Below, in pieces: positions 3,461-14,556 of a DNA stretch of 64,000 nt. Within the stretch, counting starts at the first letter, position 1, and the number at the start of each line of letters is the position of its first letter. Under the pieces are notes generated by a model. The model had not been told where the DNA came from. It did no database searches and was given only the letters and a program-made list of their open reading frames with translations. This DNA comes from Mesoterricola silvestris (GTDB lineage: Bacteria; Acidobacteriota; Holophagae; Holophagales; Holophagaceae): contig NZ_AP027080.1 in NCBI RefSeq assembly GCF_030295405.1, positions 1,922,001 through 1,986,000 on the forward strand, read 5' to 3'. The translations under genes and the position numbers were made by a program.

Positions 3461-4234
3461 ATGCGGGTGGTGGCAGCGGGACGGACGGAAGTCGGGTGCG
3501 TTCGCAAGCACAACGAGGACAATTTCCTCATGGAACCCGACCTCGGCCTTTTCGTGGTCGCCGATGGCCTGGGCGGCCATGCCGCGGGGGAGGTGGCCAG
3601 TCAGATCGTGGTGGAGAAGATCGGACAGTTCATCACCCACACGGTGGAGCGGGACCGGACCTGGCCGGTGGAGTACGACACCGCCCTGCCGTACGACGGC
3701 AACCGGCTCAAGGCGGCCCTCCTCCTGGCCGACCAGAGCATCCTGAACGATATCCGCGCCAACCCCGAGCGGGAATCCATGGGCTCCACGGTGGTGGCCT
3801 GCCTGGTCAACGGGGAGACCGTCACCCTCGTCCACGTGGGCGACAGCAGGGCCTACCTTCTGAACGCCGAAGGGATCCAGCAGGTCACCCGGGATCATTC
3901 CTGGGTGGCGGAGCAGGTGGCCAACGGGATCCTGACCCCCGACGAGGCCCGCCGCCACCCCTTCCGCAACGTCATCACCCAGGCCCTGGGCAATGGCGGA
4001 GAACTCGATATTTCGGTCAGGGAAATCCAGGCCAAGGAATTGGACCGGATTTTGCTTTGCTCCGATGGACTGTCAGGAATGATTCAAGATCAGGAAATCT
4101 GGGAAATAGTCCAGAGTGCCCCGGACATGGATGAGGCTGCAGGTCGATTGATCGCCAAAGCCATGGGCAATGGGGGGGAAGACAACATCACCGTCGTCAT
4201 CATCGCGTTCGATCCGGATAAAAATGTCTGCTAG
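3461..4234 (+). CDS. PP2C-family serine/threonine protein phosphatase
   Basis: A 257-residue stand-alone PP2C (Stp/PrpC type) that removes phosphate from Ser/Thr residues using two metal ions. The metal-binding and core motifs are all present in order: HNEDNF, VADGLGGHAAGE, GSTVV, GDSRAYL, CSDGLSG and EDNITVVI. There is no signal peptide or membrane segment. It starts two bases after the J-domain gene and is followed after 70 bases by pilM. No partner Ser/Thr kinase is seen in this window. A second PP2C gene sits at 10.3 kb. Confidence 0.92.
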   Translation: MRVVAAGRTEVGCVRKHNEDNFLMEPDLGLFVVADGLGGHAAGEVASQIVVEKIGQFITHTVERDRTWPVEYDTALPYDGNRLKAALLLADQSILNDIRANPERESMGSTVVACLVNGETVTLVHVGDSRAYLLNAEGIQQVTRDHSWVAEQVANGILTPDEARRHPFRNVITQALGNGGELDISVREIQAKELDRILLCSDGLSGMIQDQEIWEIVQSAPDMDEAAGRLIAKAMGNGGEDNITVVIIAFDPDKNVC

Positions 4235-4304: not shown

Positions 4305-5387
4305 GTGGGTCTTTTCGGTGGCAAAAAAAACCAGCTCGTGGGCCTGGACATTGGTTCCAGTTCCGTAAAGGTCTGTGAACTGCAGGTGCTAGGCAAAGGC
4401 GGGAGCCAGCGTTACCGGCTCCAGAAACTTGGCATAGCCCCGCTCCCCTTCGACGCGATCGTCGACGGGGACATCATGGACAGCAACGCGGTGGCCGCGG
4501 CCATACGCCAGGTGCTCGCGGAGCAGAAGATCAAGGCCAGGGACGTGGCCATTTCCGTGGCGGGCCAGCAGGTGATGGTCAAAAAAGTGACCTTCCCGCT
4601 CATGAGCCCCACGGAGCTGGCGGAGTCGGTGCGGTGGGAGGCCGAGAGCTTCTTCCCGGCCGGCCAGGGCCTCGACGCCTACGCCCTGGACTTCGCGGTC
4701 CTGGAGGAGCGCCCCTCCGAAGGCAACATGGACGTGGTCCTGGTGGCCTGCCGCAAGGACAAGATCGAGTCCTACATCGGCTGCGTGGCCATGGCCGGCG
4801 CCCGTTCGGTCCTCGTGGACGTGGACGTGTTCGCCATCCAGAACGCCTACGAGATCAATTCGCCCCCGGGCGGGCGGGACGAGGTGGTCGCCCTGGTGAA
4901 CATCGGGGCCCAGTTCACGAACCTGACCATGCTGGTCGGTCGCAAGTCGCTCTTCTGGCGGGACATCGCCTGGGGTGGCCACCGGTTTACCGACAAGCTC
5001 ATGGAGGACTGGGGCGTGAGCCGCGAGGCCGCCGAACTGCTCAAGGAAGGCCAGGCCGCCGAGGGCCGCACGCCCGAAGAGGTGGAACCCTCCCTTTCCT
5101 CCGTTTCCGACGGCTTCGCCGACGAACTGGGCCGCACCATCGATTTCTTCCGCTCCAGCTTCAAGGTGGACCGCCTCGACCGGGTCCTCCTCTGCGGCGG
5201 CAGCGCCAAGGTGGACAAGCTCCCCGAGATCCTGGGGGATCGTCTGAGGGTTTCCGTGGATCGCCTGAATCCGTTCCAGCTCCTCGAAATGGATGAGCGG
5301 AGTCTCGATCCTGCCGTGGTCAATGGAGTCGGCTGCACGGCCGCTGTCGCGGTCGGATTGGCCTTGCGCCAAGTGGGGGACCGATGA
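4305..5387 (+). CDS. pilM: Type IV pilus inner-membrane platform protein PilM
   Basis: An actin/FtsA-like cytoplasmic ATP-binding protein that binds the N-terminal tail of PilN and organises the pilus alignment complex. It has the phosphate-binding loop LDIGSSSVKV near residues 14-23, the VGLDIG start typical of PilM, and a second nucleotide-binding segment (LLCGGSAK, about 300). The length of 360 is normal. The start is GTG with GAGG a few bases upstream. Its stop overlaps the pilN ATG by four bases, so translation is coupled. First gene of the pilMNOPQ operon. Confidence 0.95.
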   Translation: MGLFGGKKNQLVGLDIGSSSVKVCELQVLGKGGSQRYRLQKLGIAPLPFDAIVDGDIMDSNAVAAAIRQVLAEQKIKARDVAISVAGQQVMVKKVTFPLMSPTELAESVRWEAESFFPAGQGLDAYALDFAVLEERPSEGNMDVVLVACRKDKIESYIGCVAMAGARSVLVDVDVFAIQNAYEINSPPGGRDEVVALVNIGAQFTNLTMLVGRKSLFWRDIAWGGHRFTDKLMEDWGVSREAAELLKEGQAAEGRTPEEVEPSLSSVSDGFADELGRTIDFFRSSFKVDRLDRVLLCGGSAKVDKLPEILGDRLRVSVDRLNPFQLLEMDERSLDPAVVNGVGCTAAVAVGLALRQVGDR

Positions 5388-5974
5388 TCAAGATCAACCT
5401 TCTGGGAGACACGCTCGCCCAGGTGGGTGGGAAGAAGGCCGAAAAGGCCGAGGCCGTGCCCGTCTACGCGGACTCCGCGGCTACCGGACGGCCGAGTCTT
5501 CCCATCGCAGGGGTGCTTTTCGGTCTGGTCATCGCCTCGGCGGGCGGCATCTACTACGTCATGCTGAATTCCCAGATCGAGCGCGAGCAGCGGACCAAGG
5601 TCGAACTGCTGGCCAAGAAGAAGGAGCTCGAAAAATACATGGATCTTGAACGCAAGTTCAGGACCCAGAAGGAGATGCTCCAGAAGAAAAAGGAAGTGAT
5701 GATGGGGCTCAAGTCCTTCCAGCACCTTCCGGTGCATTTCCTGGAGGAACTGGCCAATGCGCTCCCCGACGACGTGTGGTTCCGGGAGATCAACCAGAAG
5801 GGACTGAGCATCAGCATAAGGGGCGAGAGTTCCAGCTTCGAGGCCGTGAACCAGTTCCGCAATCGCCTGGTGGAGCAGACCAAGTGGTTCAAGAACGTGA
5901 ACTATCCGGCCGCCAACAAGAACGGGCGCACCGTCGAATTCACCATCTCCTGTGATTTGAAGAATTCGGCCTGA
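5384..5974 (+). CDS. pilN: Type IV pilus assembly protein PilN
   Basis: A bitopic inner-membrane protein of the pilus alignment subcomplex. It opens with MIKINLLGD, the conserved PilN tail that docks into PilM. A single membrane helix is at about 39-61 and a Lys/Glu-rich coiled coil at about 62-110. The remainder is a ferredoxin-like periplasmic domain. The length (196) is usual. It overlaps pilM by four bases and is followed by pilO after seven bases. Confidence 0.93.
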   Translation: MIKINLLGDTLAQVGGKKAEKAEAVPVYADSAATGRPSLPIAGVLFGLVIASAGGIYYVMLNSQIEREQRTKVELLAKKKELEKYMDLERKFRTQKEMLQKKKEVMMGLKSFQHLPVHFLEELANALPDDVWFREINQKGLSISIRGESSSFEAVNQFRNRLVEQTKWFKNVNYPAANKNGRTVEFTISCDLKNSA

Positions 5975-5981
5975 GGTAGCT

Positions 5982-6590
5982 ATGAACTCGCAACTTCAGA
6001 AACAACTGCTGATCGGTGGCCTGGCTGGCCTGATGCTGGCCATCCTCATCGTCTTCTTCCTGGGCGGCAAACGCGACGAGCTCGCGGGCCTGAAGGTCGT
6101 GAACCAGGGCCTCCAGGCGGACGTCGCCAAGGGCTACGCCCTCAAGGCCAACTACGAGAAGCTCAAGGCCGAGGTGGTGGAGCAGGAGAAGGTGATCGAC
6201 GAGCTGATCAAGATCATGCCCACCGACGCCGACCGCGGCGAGCTCCCCTACCGCGTCAAGAAACTGGCGGACACCGCCGGGATCGAACAGGTGTCCTTCA
6301 CGCTCATGGCGCCCGTGGCCAAGGACTACTACACGGAGTATCCCGTGCAGTTCACGTTCCGCGCCGGCTACCACACGCTGGGCCAGTTCGCCTCCCTCAT
6401 TTCCGGCTACGAGAAGATCATCAACCTCAGCGAAATGGCCCTGAAGCGGGAGACCAAAGGAACCCTGTATCCCGTTTCGGTCACCTGCAAGGTCAGCGCC
6501 TTCGTATACAACCCGGCGCCGCCTCCGCCTCCGGCGGGCACGCCGGCCAAACCGGCCCCCGCGCCGGCCAAGAAAGAATCGGGAGACTGA
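5982..6590 (+). CDS. pilO: Type IV pilus assembly protein PilO
   Basis: The partner of PilN in the inner-membrane alignment complex. One membrane helix is near residues 8-28, followed by a coiled coil (about 30-75) and a periplasmic ferredoxin-like domain containing the PilO-typical stretch with YPVQFTFRAGYHTLGQF. The last 30 residues are an Ala/Pro/Lys-rich tail. The length (202) is standard. It lies between pilN and pilP with gaps of seven and four bases. Confidence 0.93.
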   Translation: MNSQLQKQLLIGGLAGLMLAILIVFFLGGKRDELAGLKVVNQGLQADVAKGYALKANYEKLKAEVVEQEKVIDELIKIMPTDADRGELPYRVKKLADTAGIEQVSFTLMAPVAKDYYTEYPVQFTFRAGYHTLGQFASLISGYEKIINLSEMALKRETKGTLYPVSVTCKVSAFVYNPAPPPPPAGTPAKPAPAPAKKESGD

Positions 6591-6594
6591 GACC

Positions 6595-7077
6595 ATGGCA
6601 CGGATCGCATACATCCTCCCCGCCCTGGCGCTCGGCCTTCAGCTCTTCGCCCAGGGCACCCCCGCCAAGGAAGGCGCCAAGCCCCACGCGGAATCCGTGG
6701 CGACGCCGGCCCTTTCCGCCAACCAGGGGATCAATCCCGACGAGCTGATCGCCGTCCGCGCGACCCCCTACAGGCCCACCCTGCAGCGGGACCCCTTCTC
6801 CGCCCCCACCGATGCGGAGCAGACCAACAAGGGGGACCTGGTGGATGACATCGGCGTCAAAGGAATGGTGGTTTCCAACGGCAAGGTCTTGGCCGTGGTC
6901 ACCGATGCCCGCGGGAACGTCCGTTCCCTGCCCATCGGGTATCGGTTCCGGGACGGTGAACTGGTCGCCATCAACGACAAGTCCGTCACGTTCCATCAGT
7001 GGGATGCCAGCAGCACTAACACCAAAATCTTCCGAACCGTCGTCAAGACGTTCAAACGCGAGGAGGGTAAACGATGA
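6595..7077 (+). CDS. pilP: Type IV pilus assembly protein PilP (no lipobox)
   Basis: A periplasmic protein that links PilNO to the PilQ secretin. It has an N-terminal hydrophobic export segment (about 5-20), then the PilP signature RDPF (in TLQRDPFSAP) and the C-terminal beta-sandwich with DIGVKGMV and IGYRFRDGELVAI. Most PilP proteins are lipoproteins with a Cys after the signal. Here no Cys is present at the predicted cleavage site (LFAQGTPAK), so it is probably a soluble or signal-anchored variant. It overlaps pilQ by four bases. Confidence 0.88.
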   Translation: MARIAYILPALALGLQLFAQGTPAKEGAKPHAESVATPALSANQGINPDELIAVRATPYRPTLQRDPFSAPTDAEQTNKGDLVDDIGVKGMVVSNGKVLAVVTDARGNVRSLPIGYRFRDGELVAINDKSVTFHQWDASSTNTKIFRTVVKTFKREEGKR

Positions 7078-9227
7078 ATGCTCGCCTGAGTTCCTTGCTG
7101 GTCGCAGGGGGCGTGGTACTGGCGGGGATCCAATCCGGATCTCTCAACGGAGCCCTCCCTGATGCCGGCGCCAACGCCGCCACCGCAACGCTCGTGGGGG
7201 CTGCCATGCAGCCCGGCGCCATCCAGGTGCTGAAACTCAGCATCCCCGGCTTCACGGGCGTTCCCCGCCTGCAGGTGCTGCCCAAGCCCTCCCGGGTCGT
7301 GGTGGACCTCCCGGGGGTGAACCGCGGGGACAAGGTCTCCAGGAAGGATCTGCTGGGGCTTACCTGCCCGCAGATCCTCCGCTCCCGCCTGGCGCAGTTC
7401 GCGACGGCGCCCCAGCCCGTCACCCGCATCGTCCTCGAAGTGGTGCCCGGGACCCAGGCCACGGTGACCAGCGACGGCACCGGGGTGAGCATCGCCCTGG
7501 ATGCCGGTCAGGGCGCGGTGCGCGCCCAGATGGGGACCCAGGTGGCTCCGGCGCCCGCCGTTCCCGCGCCGCCCATGGAATCCGAAACCGTGGCCTCCAG
7601 CCTCGCCGCGCTCCCCCAGACCCCCGTCCTGCCCGAGCGCGCGGCCATGACGCCCGTGCCCCAGCCCGGTCTTCCCACGGCCGCCCCCGCGCCCGTGGAG
7701 CGCGCCCCGTACGTGGTGAAGGAGGAGACCCCCGCTCAGCCGGCGGCCCCCATCGTGATCAAGGAAGAGGCCCCCAAGGTCGCGGCCAAGGCCGAGCCCC
7801 TGGCCCCCGTTCCGGCCATCGGCGCGCCCTTCCAGGCCCTGCCGTCCCTGGCCGTGCAGTCCGTGCTGCCCACCGCCCTGGGCCAGGAAAAGGCCGCGCC
7901 GCACCGGGAGCAGTCCCGCAGCGGGCGCACCCTGGGCGACACCACCGGCCGCTACACCGGCGCCCGCATGACCATCGACGTCGTGGGCACCGACCTCACC
8001 AGCTTCCTGCGCATCATCGCCGACACGGCCCACCTGAACCTCATCGTGGACCAGGACGTGCAGGGCATCTACACCTTCAAGTTCACCGACACCCCCTGGG
8101 ACCAGGTGCTGGACGTGATCCTCAAGCATGCCGGGCTGGGCAAGGAAGTGAGCAACGGCATCATCCGCGTGGCCAAGATCGAGAAGCTCCAGAAGGAAGA
8201 GGAGGATCGCAAGCGCCTGGACGACGCCAAGAGCCTCGCCGGGGACGTGCAGAGCATCACCCGGCCGCTCTCCTTCGCCAAGGCGGTGGAATCCAAGGCC
8301 ATCCTGGACAAGATGCTCACCAAGCGCGGCAGCATCATCGTGGACGACCGCACCAACACCCTGATCATCACGGACCTGCCCCGGAACCTCCCCCTCCTGG
8401 ACGATCTGATCGCCCAGCTGGACGTGCAGATCCAGCAGGTGCAGATCGAGGCCCGGGTGGTGGAGGCCTCCAAGAACTGGGAAAAGGACTTCGGGGTCAA
8501 GTGGCCCACGACCAACACCGGCAATGCGGCCATCACCAACTCGGCCGGCACCGCCGCCCCCTGGGGCAGCACCAACGGCACCTCCTGGAACAGCATAAAC
8601 AACCTGGCCACCACGGGCAACGCCGCCACCGTGGCCTTCGCGCCCGGGGCCACCGGCGTCACGGACATCTCCAGCCCCGCCGGGGAATTCTGGGTCTCCT
8701 TCCTGAGCAACCGCATGAGCGTGAACGTCATTCTCCAGGCCCTGGAAAAGCAGGGCGTGGTCAAGATCGTCTCCTCGCCCAAGGTGGTCACCCAGAACAA
8801 CAAGAAGGCCAAGGTCCTGTCCGGCGCCAAGATCCCCTATCCCGCGCAGCAGGCCGGCAACGCCAACGGCGCCATCGCCGTGCAGTTCGCCGATGCCAAC
8901 CTGGAACTGGAGGTCACCCCCCAGATCACCAACGACGGCACCATCCTCATGGACGTGAAGGTCGAGAAGGCCGACGCGGACTTCGGGCAGCTGGTGGGCA
9001 CCACGCCGACCATCACCCGCAAGGCCGTGGAGACCCAGGTGCTCGTGAAGGACGGCGGCACGGCCATCATGGGCGGCGTCTACAAGAACAACAATACCCA
9101 GCAGTCCACGGGCGTGCCCTTCCTCAAGGACCTGCCCCTCATCGGGTTCCTGTTCCGCAACAAGATCAACAAGGACAGCAACGACGAACTGCTGATCTTC
9201 ATCACCCCGCGCATCCTCAAGAATTAG
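7074..9227 (+). CDS. pilQ: Type IV pilus secretin PilQ
   Basis: The outer-membrane secretin through which the pilus fibre passes. Domains in order are: an export signal (about 1-25), one AMIN domain (about 45-135, binds peptidoglycan), a long Pro/Ala/Glu-rich linker (about 150-290), an STN/N0-like domain (about 300-360, TIDVVGTDLTSFLRIIA), an N1 domain, and the secretin core. The core ends with GVPFLKDLPLIGFLFR and DELLIFITPRIL, both highly characteristic. The length (717) is within range. An Asn/Thr-rich insertion at about 475-530 is unusual. Last gene of the pil operon; the stop is followed by a structured non-coding region. Confidence 0.96.
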   Translation: MNARLSSLLVAGGVVLAGIQSGSLNGALPDAGANAATATLVGAAMQPGAIQVLKLSIPGFTGVPRLQVLPKPSRVVVDLPGVNRGDKVSRKDLLGLTCPQILRSRLAQFATAPQPVTRIVLEVVPGTQATVTSDGTGVSIALDAGQGAVRAQMGTQVAPAPAVPAPPMESETVASSLAALPQTPVLPERAAMTPVPQPGLPTAAPAPVERAPYVVKEETPAQPAAPIVIKEEAPKVAAKAEPLAPVPAIGAPFQALPSLAVQSVLPTALGQEKAAPHREQSRSGRTLGDTTGRYTGARMTIDVVGTDLTSFLRIIADTAHLNLIVDQDVQGIYTFKFTDTPWDQVLDVILKHAGLGKEVSNGIIRVAKIEKLQKEEEDRKRLDDAKSLAGDVQSITRPLSFAKAVESKAILDKMLTKRGSIIVDDRTNTLIITDLPRNLPLLDDLIAQLDVQIQQVQIEARVVEASKNWEKDFGVKWPTTNTGNAAITNSAGTAAPWGSTNGTSWNSINNLATTGNAATVAFAPGATGVTDISSPAGEFWVSFLSNRMSVNVILQALEKQGVVKIVSSPKVVTQNNKKAKVLSGAKIPYPAQQAGNANGAIAVQFADANLELEVTPQITNDGTILMDVKVEKADADFGQLVGTTPTITRKAVETQVLVKDGGTAIMGGVYKNNNTQQSTGVPFLKDLPLIGFLFRNKINKDSNDELLIFITPRILKN

Positions 9228-9728: not shown

Positions 9729-9941
9729 TTACTTGCCGATGGGGAGGGTGCGCACGAGGCGCTTGCAGGTGTTGCAGAGAATGGTGTAGGTGTCGGGCTG
9801 TTCGAAGTGGTACTTGAAGCCGGGGCCTTCCATGGGGGCCTGGTCGACCTTTTCCAGGCGGCCGAAATGGTATTCGGCGATGCGAACGCTCTGGGGGACG
9901 GTGAGATCAGCGCCGCAATTGGGGCAGGAGATGGCAGCCAT
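9729..9941 (-). CDS. Small four-cysteine (zinc-ribbon-like) protein
   Basis: A 70-residue protein with two CxxC knuckles, C6-P-N-C9 (CPNCGAD) and C56-N-T-C59 (CNTCKR). The spacing suggests one structural zinc site across the chain. It has no signal peptide or membrane segment. It starts with ATG preceded by GGAG. I do not recognise the family. It is followed on the same strand by a strong hairpin, and a second tiny gene lies 40 bases upstream. Confidence 0.7.
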   Translation of the reverse strand: MAAISCPNCGADLTVPQSVRIAEYHFGRLEKVDQAPMEGPGFKYHFEQPDTYTILCNTCKRLVRTLPIGK

Positions 9942-9981: not shown

Positions 9982-10176
9982 CTACCTGATCAAAAGGTAC
10001 CAGATGCCGTAGCCGGCGAGGCCGAGAAAAAGCAGGCCCGCCACGACCTGGAGGATCACTTTCCCGATTCTATAGGCAACCCAGAGCACCAGGACCAGGA
10101 GAATGACCGCGATGACCGTCTGGGTCGGGGTCATGGGAGGGAGGTGCTGGGAGGCGGCGGGGGCATGGGTGATCAC
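9982..10176 (-). CDS. Small hydrophobic membrane protein
   Basis: A 64-residue protein with a polar N-terminus and a long hydrophobic stretch (about 19-62), enough for two short membrane helices separated by RIGK. The GTG at 10176 is preferred because AGGAG lies six bases upstream, whereas the internal ATG at 10134 has no ribosome-binding site. The family is not recognised. It probably shares a transcript with the zinc-ribbon-like gene 40 bases downstream, and it is divergent from the PP2C operon. Confidence 0.6.
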   Translation of the reverse strand: MITHAPAASQHLPPMTPTQTVIAVILLVLVLWVAYRIGKVILQVVAGLLFLGLAGYGIWYLLIR

Positions 10177-10315: not shown

Positions 10316-11263
10316 ATGCTCATCGATTATGCTGCCATCACCCACGTCGGAAGGGTGCGGAAAAACAACGAAGACGCCTATCTGGTCAGTGCCCTGGATG
10401 GGGATGAGCCTCTCGTGAACGGGCTGGGGCCCATGCCCAACACGTGCCACGCCGGCATCCTGGCCGCGGTGGCCGATGGCATGGGGGGGGCGGCCTCCGG
10501 CGAAATCGCCAGCCGGGAAGGGCTGGCGTCCGTGGCGGTGAACCTCTTCGGGCACTGGGGGCGGTTCCCGGCCCACCTGGCCAACGAGGCCGGGCTCCTG
10601 AAGGCCCTCAAGCGCGCCGTGGAGGGCGCCTCCAGCGCGGTGCTCAGCTACGCGGATTCGGAGCGCTCCAGCCGGGGCATGGGGTCCACCCTCACCGCCG
10701 CCGTCATCTGGAAGGGCCACGCGTACCTGGCCCAGGTGGGCGACAGCCGCGCCTACATCTATCGCAAGCCCGGCCTGGTGCAGATCACCGAGGACCAGAC
10801 CCTGGTGCGGGAGATGATCAGCAACGGCACCATCACCGCCGACGAGGCCAAGACCCACCCCCAGCGCAGCATGATCACCCAGGCCCTGGGCGCGCCGGTG
10901 CCCATCCGGGCCGTGCTGAGCCGGGTGGCGCTGCGCCGCGGGGACCGCCTGCTGCTCTGCACCGACGGCCTGCACGGGGAGGTGCCGGACGAACACCTGG
11001 CCCTGCTGCTGTCCCGGGGGGACCCGGCCAGCGCCACCCTGGAGGCCATGGCCCAGGAGGCCCTTCTCCGGGGCGGCCGGGACAACCTCACGGGGCTGCT
11101 CCTCACCCTGGACGACCCGGGCCTGGCCATGCCCGACCTCCACGAACCCGTGCGCATCGTCGAGCCGCAGCTCTCCTCGGACCCGCTGCTGGCCAACGAG
11201 GACACCCATCCCAACCAGCCCATCATCAATCGTCTAGGCCGCCTTTTGCGGGGGAATACATGA
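10316..11263 (+). CDS. PP2C-family serine/threonine protein phosphatase (second copy)
   Basis: A 315-residue metal-dependent phosphatase. The motifs in order are NNEDAY, VADGMGGAASGE, GSTLTAAV, GDSRAYI, CTDGLHG and RDNLTGLLL. It carries about 60 extra C-terminal residues after the catalytic fold, ending in a basic NRLGRLLRGNT, with no membrane segment. It starts a five-gene operon. Its stop overlaps the ATG of the rdgC-like gene by four bases, so the phosphatase and the RdgC-like protein are made together. The substrate is unknown. Confidence 0.9.
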   Translation: MLIDYAAITHVGRVRKNNEDAYLVSALDGDEPLVNGLGPMPNTCHAGILAAVADGMGGAASGEIASREGLASVAVNLFGHWGRFPAHLANEAGLLKALKRAVEGASSAVLSYADSERSSRGMGSTLTAAVIWKGHAYLAQVGDSRAYIYRKPGLVQITEDQTLVREMISNGTITADEAKTHPQRSMITQALGAPVPIRAVLSRVALRRGDRLLLCTDGLHGEVPDEHLALLLSRGDPASATLEAMAQEALLRGGRDNLTGLLLTLDDPGLAMPDLHEPVRIVEPQLSSDPLLANEDTHPNQPIINRLGRLLRGNT

Positions 11264-11871
11264 GCCTGATCCAAGGAACCTTATCACTCAGGCGCTTCCT
11301 GGTGCTTGGGCCCGTGCCCTCCGAGCAGGAACTGCACGAGGGGCTCAAGGAGCATTCCTACCGCCCCTTCGAGGACGGGCTCGAGGAGGAGCGCATGGGC
11401 TGGTGCGACTGGCGCAACCTCCTCATCCTGCCCCCGGACCGGGACTGGGTGGTCCAGGAGCGCTTCGCCGTCTTCGGCCTGCGCATGGATTCCCGCAAGG
11501 TGCCCGGCGCCCTCCTGAAGGCCCAGGTGGACCTGCGGCTGCAGAACCTGCAGAAGGAGAAGGATCTGGCCTTCGTGGGCCGGGAGGCCCGCACCTCCCT
11601 GGCCGAGGAGGTGAAGGTGGAGCTGCTGCTCAAGGTGCTGCCCACCCCCAAGGTGGCCGAGGTGGCCTGGGACCTCAAGGGCGGCATGCTCTGGACCACC
11701 GCCTCCTCCTCCAAGACCCAGTCGGCCCTCTTCGAACTCTTCATGAAGTCCTTCGGACTCGAGCTGCAGCCCCTGGCGCCGCTGCTCCTCGCCGGGCGCA
11801 TGCTGCCCGGCATCTCCGTGGACTCCCTCATGGCCCTCGATCCCCTCGATCTCACGCTGGAGCATGCATGA
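11260..11871 (+). CDS. rdgC: RdgC-like recombination-associated protein
   Basis: A 203-residue protein resembling the shorter RdgC proteins of deltaproteobacteria. Features in support are an N-terminal beta-rich segment, the GWCDWRN element near residue 47 where RdgC has a conserved GW, FGLRMDSRKVPGALLK, a basic helical middle, and TPKVAEVAWDLKGGMLWTTASS. E. coli RdgC is a ring-shaped DNA-binding protein that modulates RecA; it is about 300 residues, so this one is shorter. Start and stop both form ATGA overlaps with neighbours. The assignment is by pattern memory and should be checked with a profile search. Confidence 0.65.
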   Translation: MSLIQGTLSLRRFLVLGPVPSEQELHEGLKEHSYRPFEDGLEEERMGWCDWRNLLILPPDRDWVVQERFAVFGLRMDSRKVPGALLKAQVDLRLQNLQKEKDLAFVGREARTSLAEEVKVELLLKVLPTPKVAEVAWDLKGGMLWTTASSSKTQSALFELFMKSFGLELQPLAPLLLAGRMLPGISVDSLMALDPLDLTLEHA

Positions 11872-12410
11872 AACCCATGGAACTCATTGAACAGGGCCGG
11901 TTCCTCGGCGAGGAGTTCCTGCTCTGGCTCTGGATGCGCGGCCTCAAGGAGGGCGGCGTCAGCGGCCTGGACGGGGACCAATCCGCCTGCTTCGTGGACG
12001 ACGCCATGCAGCTGGTCACGGAAAGCGGCGACGTGAAGGAGCTGAGCCTGCGCAAGGGCAATCCCGCGGAGAGCCGCGAGGCCTTCGAGGCCCTGAGCCG
12101 GGGCATGCGTCCCGCCAAGGCCAAGGTGCGCCTCCTCTCCGGCGACATGGAATGGACGTTCACGCTGGGGGCCGCGGGCCTGGAGATCAGCACCATGAAG
12201 CTGCCCCCCACCCAGGCCAAGGATCCCCAGGGCCGCATCGCCGACCGGCTCTTCCTGCTGGAGGAGGGCACCTCCCACCTGGAACGGCGCTTCCAGGCCT
12301 TCCTGGAGGCCCGGGCCCAGGATCCCGAGGCCATGGAGGAGAGCATGCGGGAGTGGGTGCGCGCATCCCTGGCCGGCGTCTCCGGCGAAGAAGTGCCATG
12401 GGAGGGCTGA
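11868..12410 (+). CDS. Conserved-looking protein of unknown function coupled to rdgC
   Basis: A 180-residue protein, predicted alpha/beta and soluble. It starts with an amphipathic helix (FLGEEFLLWLWMRGL), followed by an acidic segment and several beta-like stretches (VRLLSGDMEWTFTLG). No catalytic motif or metal-binding site is evident. The ATG overlaps the rdgC stop by four bases, and its 3' end overlaps the amidase gene by 13 bases. This suggests that it works with RdgC, for example as a partner subunit. I do not recognise the family. Confidence 0.75.
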   Translation: MKPMELIEQGRFLGEEFLLWLWMRGLKEGGVSGLDGDQSACFVDDAMQLVTESGDVKELSLRKGNPAESREAFEALSRGMRPAKAKVRLLSGDMEWTFTLGAAGLEISTMKLPPTQAKDPQGRIADRLFLLEEGTSHLERRFQAFLEARAQDPEAMEESMREWVRASLAGVSGEEVPWEG

Positions 12411-14056
12411 GGGCGCTGGCCTTCGCCGCCGCGGCGGGCTTCGTGGCCCTGGCGGCCCCGGCCACGGCGGAGGTCAAGGCCAGGCTCCCCAAGGGCGGCG
12501 CGGCCCGCATCCGCCTCGTCTTCCGGCAGGGCGTGCTGGTGGAGGCCCCGAAGCTGCCCCGCAGGTTCCTGGCGGCCCCGGCCTCCGGCTGGGCCAGTTT
12601 CCAGGACCTCACGCCGGAGGGCAGGCTCTGGGCCCTCCACGCCCTGTTCCCCGAGGACCGGTGGTCGGCCTCGGAGGTGCGCCACAAGGTGCGCTGGCCC
12701 GAACTGGAATCGGTGTGGCTCATGTCCGCGCTCTTCGTGGGGCACGGCCAGCACTACGACAAGCTCCAGGCCGCCAACCCCGCCCGGCCCGAAAAGCTGA
12801 GGCTGGGTGACGTCTGGGTGATCCCCCGCACCCTCCTGGCCCGGGAGCTGGGAGGCCGGGGCCAGGCCAAGGTGGACCGCAGCCAGCCCGAGGACGGCCT
12901 GGACGACGAGGCCCGGGTCGCCGCCTACCGGGCCCTGCTCACCTTCGGCGAGGACGCCCAGGGCAAGTACGCCGCCTACCACCTGCGCAAGGGCGAGGCG
13001 CTCTACACGGCCGTCGTCATGCGCTACACGGACCAGGTGGACCCCAAGGGCGTCAACGACCTGGCCCTGGAGATCGCGCGGCGCAGCGGCATCGAGGACG
13101 TGCGGGCCATCCAGCCCGGGCAGCTCATCAAGATCCCCCAGACGCTCCTGGCCGATCCCTTCCAGGCCGAAGGGTCCGTGGCCCTGGCCGAGGAGCGGGA
13201 GGTCCGCGCCGAGGTGCGGCGCACCCCCGCCGTGGAGGCCGGACCCCGCCTCAAGGGCATCCGCATCGTCCTGGACGCCGGCCACGGCGGCGTGGACAAG
13301 GGGGCCGCGGCCAACGGCGCGTGGGAATCCGACTTCGTCTACGACATCGCCATGCGGGTGCGCAGGATCCTGGAGCAGGACACGGAGGCGGTGGTGTCCA
13401 GCACCATCCGCTACCCCAGCATCGGCTTCAAGGTCCGCGAGAGCATCGTCCGCCCCACCCACGACGCCGAGATCCTCACCACGCCGCCCTTCGCCAACGA
13501 CGGCGAGAGCCCGAACGCCGTGAGCGTGCACCTGCGCTGGGTGCTGGCCAACGACCTCTTCGCGGCCTTCGCCCGCGCCGGCGACGCCCGCAAGACCCTC
13601 TTCATCAGCTTCCACGCCGACAGCCTCCACCCCTCGGCCCGGGGCACCATGGTCTACGTGCCCGGCGCCTCCGGCGTGCCCTCCAGCTTCGCCCTGGGCG
13701 ACCGCCGCGCGGCCAGGGTCAAGGAGATGAAGGTGGGCGCCCGGGTCGCCTTCACCGCCAAGGAACGCCTCCAGTCCGAAGCCCGCAGCCGCCTCTTCGC
13801 GGAGGCCCTCCTGAAGACGCTGGGCCAGGACGATCTCCCCGTCCACGGAAACCGCCCCATCCGCAACGTCATCCAGCGCTCCGGCAAGAGCTTCGTCCCC
13901 GCCGTCATCCGCTACAGCGCCGCGGCCACCAAGGTGCTGGTGGAGGTGGCGAACCTCACCAACGAGGACGACGTGGAAAACCTCAAGGACCCCGCCTTCC
14001 GGGAGCGCTACGCCGAGGCCGTGGTGAACGCCGTGAAGGCCTATTACCGGAGCTGA
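12398..14056 (+). CDS. N-acetylmuramoyl-L-alanine amidase (Amidase_3) with LysM-like repeats
   Basis: A secreted zinc amidase that cleaves the bond between muramic acid and the stem peptide in peptidoglycan. It has an N-terminal signal peptide (about 1-24), two LysM-like wall-binding segments (about 103-147 and 193-250), and an Amidase_3 domain (about 288-550). The zinc ligands are visible: His in DAGHGG (295), Glu in WESDF (310) and His in SFHAD. The catalytic Glu is in VEVANLTN. The 552-residue length is larger than typical AmiA/AmiC because of the N-terminal binding region. The start overlaps the previous gene. Confidence 0.9.
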   Translation: MGGLRALAFAAAAGFVALAAPATAEVKARLPKGGAARIRLVFRQGVLVEAPKLPRRFLAAPASGWASFQDLTPEGRLWALHALFPEDRWSASEVRHKVRWPELESVWLMSALFVGHGQHYDKLQAANPARPEKLRLGDVWVIPRTLLARELGGRGQAKVDRSQPEDGLDDEARVAAYRALLTFGEDAQGKYAAYHLRKGEALYTAVVMRYTDQVDPKGVNDLALEIARRSGIEDVRAIQPGQLIKIPQTLLADPFQAEGSVALAEEREVRAEVRRTPAVEAGPRLKGIRIVLDAGHGGVDKGAAANGAWESDFVYDIAMRVRRILEQDTEAVVSSTIRYPSIGFKVRESIVRPTHDAEILTTPPFANDGESPNAVSVHLRWVLANDLFAAFARAGDARKTLFISFHADSLHPSARGTMVYVPGASGVPSSFALGDRRAARVKEMKVGARVAFTAKERLQSEARSRLFAEALLKTLGQDDLPVHGNRPIRNVIQRSGKSFVPAVIRYSAAATKVLVEVANLTNEDDVENLKDPAFRERYAEAVVNAVKAYYRS

Positions 14057-14057
14057 C

Positions 14058-14270
14058 GTGATCGTCTACGCGCGCATCAACAACATCGGGTGGGCGCACC
14101 TCTGGACCTCCCGCGAGGCCTACGAGGACGGCGAGGCCTCCGTGCACTTCTTCAATTCCCGGATTGATCCGCGGTGGCAGGAGCTGGTGCTCACCGAAGA
14201 CCAGCGCACCCGGCTGGCGGCGGGGGAACTGGTGGAGATGGAGGACCCGGGGTACCTGGAAGGTTCCTAG
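14058..14270 (+). CDS. Small protein of unknown function, last gene of the PP2C-rdgC-amidase operon
   Basis: A 70-residue acidic protein, rich in Trp, Glu and Arg, with no signal, membrane segment or cysteine. It starts with GTG one base after the amidase stop. The stop is followed by a long-hairpin repeat in the convergent gap. The family is not recognised; the coupling and the plausible composition argue that it is real. Confidence 0.6.
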   Translation: MIVYARINNIGWAHLWTSREAYEDGEASVHFFNSRIDPRWQELVLTEDQRTRLAAGELVEMEDPGYLEGS

Positions 14271-14336: not shown

Positions 14337-14529
14337 GGCTCGTCGGCCGGGAACGGGCAGCGTTCGAGGGCTCATCCCCTTCATCCTGTTCATCCCATTT
14401 TCATCCCTGTTCCCGCAGGGCCAAAGCAGGGATGGGTCGGCGCACGCGGATCAACGACGCGCCGGCCCACTTCATCGCTGGCCCTGCGGGAACAGGGATG
14501 AAAAAGGGATGAACAGGATGAAGGGGATG
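14337..14529. repeat. Long-hairpin repeat element, copy 1 (family A)
   Basis: Two 51-nt arms (14373-14423 and 14479-14529) form an inverted repeat with a single mismatch. The interior also carries a shorter, imperfect hairpin. A short conserved block (GGCTCGTCGGCCGGGAACGG, 14337-14356) precedes the left arm, as in the other copies. It fills the convergent gap between the small protein at 14270 and the TPR gene ending at 14557. Copies 2 and 3 are at 27080-27270 and 59536-59744. Confidence 0.9.
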
Positions 14530-14556
14530 AAAGAGGGGATCAGCCTCAGGGCCTCC

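Follow-up and report, generated by a model that had tools for sequence, protein, structure and literature searches.

In the genome of Mesoterricola silvestris, a gene that resembles rdgC is embedded in a tightly packed cluster and is followed directly by a gene for a protein without a known family. This arrangement raises the question of what the second protein is, and whether the cluster as a whole serves one coordinated function, as a first-pass annotation of the locus had proposed. Here, the question was addressed by analysis of a 64,000-nt stretch of that genome (NZ_AP027080.1, positions 1,922,001-1,986,000), hereafter referred to as the window, in which the operon occupies positions 10316-14270 of the + strand.

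Layout of the operon and its outer genes

The features of the locus, in window coordinates, are as follows.

4305..9227, +, pilMNOPQ type IV pilus operon, upstream context (Pfam PilM_2, PilN, PilO, PilP at sub-threshold score, and Secretin)
10316..11263, +, gene 1, PP2C-type Ser/Thr phosphatase, Stp1/IreP-like (Pfam PP2C_2, conserved position)
11260..11871, +, gene 2, probable RdgC N-terminal subunit, 203 aa (Pfam RdgC, hhalign, predicted structure)
11868..12410, +, gene 3, probable RdgC C-terminal subunit, 180 aa (predicted structure, homology to the C-terminal half of single-chain RdgCs)
11868..11871, +, ATGA overlap of the gene 3 start and the gene 2 stop, which would cut RdgC in two (ORF reading)
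12398..14056, +, gene 4, secreted-type N-acetylmuramoyl-L-alanine amidase (Amidase_3), 552 aa (Pfam Amidase_3)
14058..14270, +, gene 5, small protein without known family, 70 aa (no Pfam or NCBIfam match over cut-off)

All five ORFs were confirmed at the place and on the strand where they had been annotated, with junctions that overlap or nearly touch: genes 1/2, 2/3, and 3/4 overlap by 4, 4, and 13 nt, respectively, and a 1-nt gap separates genes 4 and 5. Because the genes overlap, we infer that the unit is co-transcribed. The operon is real and not a chance arrangement, as its gene order is kept in relatives. A search around the operon gave no sigma-70-like promoter, and terminator-like sites there were no more common than in shuffled sequences; evidence from promoters and terminators, amounting to no more than the shuffles gave, was dropped.

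The product of gene 1 matched Pfam PP2C_2 with 49.9 bits (cut-off 24). Its score against NCBIfam Stp1_PP2C_phos was 198.9 bits, under the cut-off of 230, and gene 1 was therefore considered to encode a PP2C relative, not Stp1 itself. For gene 4, the amidase call was borne out by Pfam Amidase_3 (81.9 bits), and a signal peptide was read by eye. The annotation had also given this protein a LysM domain; Pfam assigned Amidase_3 only to the window amidase, even at E<=5, and a relative from the second family of the class scored a sub-threshold LysM match (16.7 vs 20.9 bits).

Several other features were observed near the operon. Another gene for a PP2C relative, with 32% identity to gene 1, lies at 3548-4216 (+), just upstream of pilMNOPQ; the pilus operon thus has a phosphatase gene on either side. 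Two small proteins encoded on the - strand are kept near the operon, namely a 70-aa zinc-ribbon-like protein (9732-9941), which showed 66-100% identity wherever it occurred in Holophagaceae loci and was present also in reduced genomes, and a 64-aa membrane-type protein (9985-10176). Following the operon, positions 14372-14530 hold an inverted repeat with 72-nt arms (88% complementary) and a 15-nt loop. At <=3 mismatches, the half-site of this repeat matched the genome 95 times and its reversed control 0 times; the matches often form inverted pairs about 110-135 nt apart, and the repeat is a dispersed palindromic element.

Genes 2 and 3 and their relation to RdgC

Gene 2 had been annotated as RdgC-like. 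This assignment passed a profile search (Pfam RdgC, PF04381, 38.5 bits vs a cut-off of 25) and was the one RdgC match in the M. silvestris genome, but the match covered profile positions 18-163 of 298 only, and gene 2 covers RdgC only up to about residue 168. A single-sequence phmmer search with gene 2 missed RdgC; the family profile found it, matching PDB 2owl at E 7.5e-6, and comparison with proteobacterial RdgC by hhalign gave E 2.7e-15. The AF2 model of gene 2 (pLDDT 86.1) has the centre-plus-tip fold of the RdgC N-terminus. It matched residues 1-167 of 2owl with a VIA Z of 11.7 (165 residues, rmsd 3.6), and Foldseek matched it to 2owy at E 7.9e-12.

Gene 3 had no match in Pfam or NCBIfam. 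Its sequence gave chance matches only against PDB sequences, and its profile, compared directly with seven proteobacterial RdgCs, gave a probability of 0.2, i.e. no match. An AF2 model built from an alignment of 70 relatives (pLDDT 84.8, pTM 0.81) contained five strands and flanking helices, in agreement with the description of the RdgC base domain as a five-stranded antiparallel sheet with four helices (PMC11077077). When this model was searched with Foldseek against 350,542 PDB chains, RdgC 2owy was the sole match under E 0.001 (E 4.1e-4), with a modest TM-score of 0.41 and an rmsd of 12.6 over 173 columns. VIA matched the model to residues 170-305 of 2owy with a Z of 8.4, which is near the level that the tool calls common (121 residues, rmsd 4.3), and to residues 170-302 of 2owl with a Z of 8.0 (118 residues, rmsd 3.0); the next entry after RdgC stood at Z 4.4. 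When the C-terminal halves only of pooled split and fused sequences were compared with proteobacterial RdgC, the profile match was weak (probability 36.8, E 3.6e-4). Because the direct profile comparison fails, the link between gene 3 and proteobacterial RdgC rests on intermediate sequences together with the fold.

Such intermediates were found among single-chain RdgC-like proteins of ~300-330 residues, encoded on phage-type contigs of two Holophagaceae genomes and in IMG/VR (loci L136, L137/L138, and L141/L142). In these proteins, residues 1-153 were matched by gene 2 (E 2.9e-13) and residues 173-302 by gene 3 (E 3.6e-7), and the proteins themselves matched proteobacterial RdgC over 19-256 (E 1.2e-7). 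Moreover, the Geoalkalibacter plasmid pGSUB1 encodes a 396-aa protein annotated as rdgC (WP_040202910; Pfam RdgC, 46.3 bits), of which residues 1-170 aligned with gene 2 (BLASTP, 26%, E 5e-12) and residues 222-390 with gene 3 (29%, E 2e-12) of the second family. This protein is thus homologous to both genes and has a longer linker, but unlike the Holophagaceae pair it is fused and plasmid-borne, with no amidase or PP2C gene annotated beside it. The gene 3 profile matched four single-chain proteins, Geoalkalibacter included, with a probability of 97.2 (E 4e-11). Against the phage-type single-chain profile alone the probability was 93.6, compared with 0.1 for a reversed control and <=1.8 for 20 column shuffles.

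In the predicted structures, the two genes tile E. coli RdgC as residues 1-167 and 170-302, so that the cut falls at about residue 168-170; 11 of the 12 aligned pairs split at E. coli residue 171, and the twelfth splits at 174-175. The two genes were also inherited together. Searches with Pfam RdgC and with the gene 3 profile matched the same 32 of 297 Acidobacteriota genomes, all within the class except one (G177). Its 9-kb contig, on which an antirepressor-type (BRO-N-like) gene and a gene for a regulator were recognised by eye, is either from a prophage or wrongly placed in that genome. Among the 32 gene 3 copies, that of G270 contained an in-frame TAA within the search frame.

In summary, each gene is homologous to the matching half of RdgC, the predicted folds tile the E. 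coli structure, the two genes are inherited together, and each has a reading frame of its own. It is therefore highly probable that one RdgC is divided here between gene 2, the N-terminal half (centre plus tip), and gene 3, the C-terminal half (base), produced as separately translated, coupled subunits. That gene 3 is instead an unrelated protein partnering an RdgC N-terminal half would fit its lack of a Pfam match and the failure of its direct profile comparison with the proteobacterial proteins; we regard this as very improbable, given that single-chain RdgC proteins hold both parts in the same order and that the fold match of gene 3 to RdgC residues 170-305 lies far above all others. Slightly less probable still is a split without physiological meaning, arising from a sequencing frameshift, from gene decay, or from a single chain made by programmed frameshifting. 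The overlap of the two frames by only 4 nt in the window would be in keeping with such an origin. Against it, both frames are open in many species of two families with the same split point, and the junction varies among relatives (-11, -4, -1, 0, or +1 nt; -4 in the window). In phage-type copies the halves are set apart by 198 nt or by a whole ORF, which a frameshift could not bridge, and a plasmid of Desulfovibrio type has the same split with a 30-nt gap. The variable junctions and the intervening DNA of the phage-type copies therefore argue for two proteins and not a frameshift. RdgC is one continuous polypeptide of ~300 residues; here two ORFs of 203 and 180 aa were found, and the pair was therefore classed as an RdgC homologue in split form and kept apart from standard RdgC. 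The "protein of unknown family" of the first-pass annotation thus gives way, on the basis of fold, single-chain homologues, and co-occurrence, to the probable C-terminal half of RdgC, and the combination encoded here accordingly becomes a split RdgC with a phosphatase and an amidase.

The plasmid just mentioned, Nitratidesulfovibrio pDsulf-L2-2, encodes a 204-aa "rdgC" product, with a 178-aa "hypothetical protein" encoded next downstream, and is a second lineage with a split RdgC. It is split at the same place as the Holophagaceae pair, but it differs in being a plasmid, in its gap, and in having no amidase or PP2C gene annotated in the region shown. Since only the first half is named RdgC there, a gene that matches just half of the RdgC profile should be interpreted jointly with the one that follows it. 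A cluster of SAVED, Mov34, ThiF, and nucleotidyltransferase genes adjoins this split RdgC (locus L151, 7043-11340) and presumably represents a CBASS-type defence system.

In IMG/VR contig 3300035183_001487, genes 2 and 3 occur with another ORF between them, and the RdgC pair is therefore also carried independently of the other operon genes. Phage-type gene 3 copies (L140, 4416-5249 +; L139/L076) carry a C-terminal extension of ~100 residues that is absent from the chromosomal copies. Searches of isolated phages by tblastn with gene 3 of the second family and two Desulfovibrio-type queries gave no match, and neither a Desulfovibrio-type gene 3 nor an L136-type single chain was confirmed in viral contigs. 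A tree of the N-terminal halves (23 rows, with weak deep support) needed three changes between split and fused forms and was compatible also with a single origin.

Conservation of the cluster within the class

The distribution of gene 2 was broad in Holophagaceae: it was present in 71 of 77 genomes, and in 46 of 48 of the better assemblies. The six genomes without it comprised three of one reduced-genome genus and three incomplete assemblies (58-71%). Gene neighbours were scored at the 68 loci with a gene 3 alignment in the scan of the genome collection (61 in Holophagaceae and 7 in the second family), wherever the flank was long enough. At GC-rich loci, longest-ORF calling gave antisense shadow ORFs, and frames were read around matches instead.

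Gene 2 lay directly before gene 3 in 59/59 evaluable Holophagaceae loci, the PP2C gene lay directly upstream of gene 2 in 51/54, the amidase gene followed gene 3 in 57/59, and pilQ was found upstream in 40/45. Scattering of the genes in relatives, the outcome named beforehand as speaking against the annotated operon, was not seen, and the order PP2C, gene 2, gene 3, amidase was kept across the family. The description as a five-gene operon held for four genes. Of the 52 Holophagaceae loci that could be evaluated, only 5 had the small gene 5 directly after the amidase gene (in Geothrix, it was often ~1.6 kb downstream), and the conserved Holophagaceae unit therefore consists of four genes, with gene 5 outside the core. 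In the second family, gene 2 was present at 7/7 and the amidase gene at 6/6 evaluable loci, and PP2C and pilQ were present at 0/5 and 0/4, respectively. From these neighbour counts, the unit comprises four genes in Holophagaceae and a three-gene core in the class.

Exceptions were few. One locus (L076) is a phage-type second copy without PP2C, amidase, or pilQ; two others (L119 and L133) were without PP2C or pilQ, and L119 was also without the amidase gene; at two more (L082 and L123), no pilQ lay within the permitted distance. A methyltransferase gene precedes the RdgC pair in the second family. At one locus of that family (L074), the order was dprA-topA, then the methyltransferase gene, then the pair (dprA and methyltransferase by Pfam, topA by eye), and at two (L068 and L071) the methyltransferase gene was preceded by ATP-synthase-like genes, read by eye.

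Function of the operon and meaning of the split

Whether the four genes form one pathway was then a separate matter from whether they form one cluster. Such a pathway would couple recombination to the envelope, e.g. in DNA uptake via the type IV pilus, with the amidase opening the wall, PP2C signalling, and the split RdgC controlling RecA on incoming DNA. The gene order kept across Holophagaceae, the overlaps between the genes, the pilMNOPQ operon upstream (with pilQ recurring at most evaluable loci of the family), and the dprA-topA genes before the RdgC pair at one locus of the second family all point in this direction, as does a link of RdgC to pilin antigenic variation in Neisseria, named in the title of a reference within PMC11077077. 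Against this stand the second family, in which neither PP2C nor pilQ accompanied the pair, the RdgC pair of L119 without PP2C, amidase, or pilQ nearby, and the phage-type copies, in which the pair is alone. Moreover, two reduced 1.2-Mb genomes (G001 and G002, 96-97% complete) kept the amidase gene (54-55% identity) but had no gene 2, and the region surrounding their amidase gene yielded neither half of RdgC; PP2C was kept by these genomes only as a relative of 30-34% identity, and the G001 copy read with stops in the genome search. Because the reduced genomes keep the amidase without gene 2 and L119 has the pair alone, the gene cluster is solid and the shared pathway is not, and the proposal of a coordinated function for the unit was not upheld. 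We therefore consider a single pathway unlikely. A link between the RdgC operon and DNA uptake is possible. PP2C and the amidase are probably co-expressed neighbours, with functions that, judged from the comparisons among genomes, are separable from that of the RdgC pair.

An anti-phage defence system was considered as well and was rejected, as no PADLOC-DB model matched convincingly. The matches were weak (PDC-M21C for PP2C, E 5.9e-4; Cas11e for gene 3, E 0.0016), and nothing was found for genes 2, 4, and 5.

Among known systems, proteobacterial RdgC (E. coli rdgC, PDB 2owl; PDB 2owy) is matched by both Holophagaceae halves in order, but it is one chain of ~300 residues, whereas the Holophagaceae form is encoded by two genes, has a longer stretch around the split point in the alignment, and lies in a different operon. 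The RdgC-like proteins of histone operons in Bacillus and Halobacteria also belong to a conserved multi-gene operon outside Proteobacteria; they are described as one protein with extra small domains, encoded beside a histone and a membrane protein, in contrast to the split RdgC of Holophagaceae (PMC11390915). RdgC-like operon proteins outside Proteobacteria have thus already been described, as one protein. Phage lambda RexA is related in structure to the centre and base domains of RdgC and binds DNA non-specifically, but it is described as a single chain in the context of phage exclusion (PMC11077077). Literature searches, with most subscription papers outside their range, found no work that connects RdgC to Acidobacteri(ota) or to Geobacter and nothing evidently related on RdgC with an amidase and an operon; the term "split RdgC" was absent.

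RdgC lowers RecA strand exchange, and its dimerisation is mediated by base and tip (PMC11077077). By analogy, the base chain encoded by gene 3 would pair non-covalently with the centre-plus-tip chain encoded by gene 2, and two such pairs would most likely close a 2+2 ring, the counterpart of the E. coli homodimer ring. Like E. coli RdgC, the predicted ring would enclose duplex DNA and hold RecA in check. As a tentative proposal, which we hold to be of low probability, a ring held by non-covalent contacts between two kinds of subunit may open by subunit exchange, not only by domain rotation, and so may act as a loadable and regulable DNA clamp, whose supply, and perhaps phosphorylation via the co-translated PP2C, may be tied to wall remodelling by the amidase.

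The identification of gene 3 would give a name to an otherwise unannotated protein family. With the pair read as a probable split RdgC, RdgC would exist outside Proteobacteria in a natural two-gene form that is divided between its ring-building parts and, in one bacterial class, belongs to a stable operon on the chromosome, and the split would make the opening of the RdgC ring and its loading onto DNA accessible through the mixing of two subunits.
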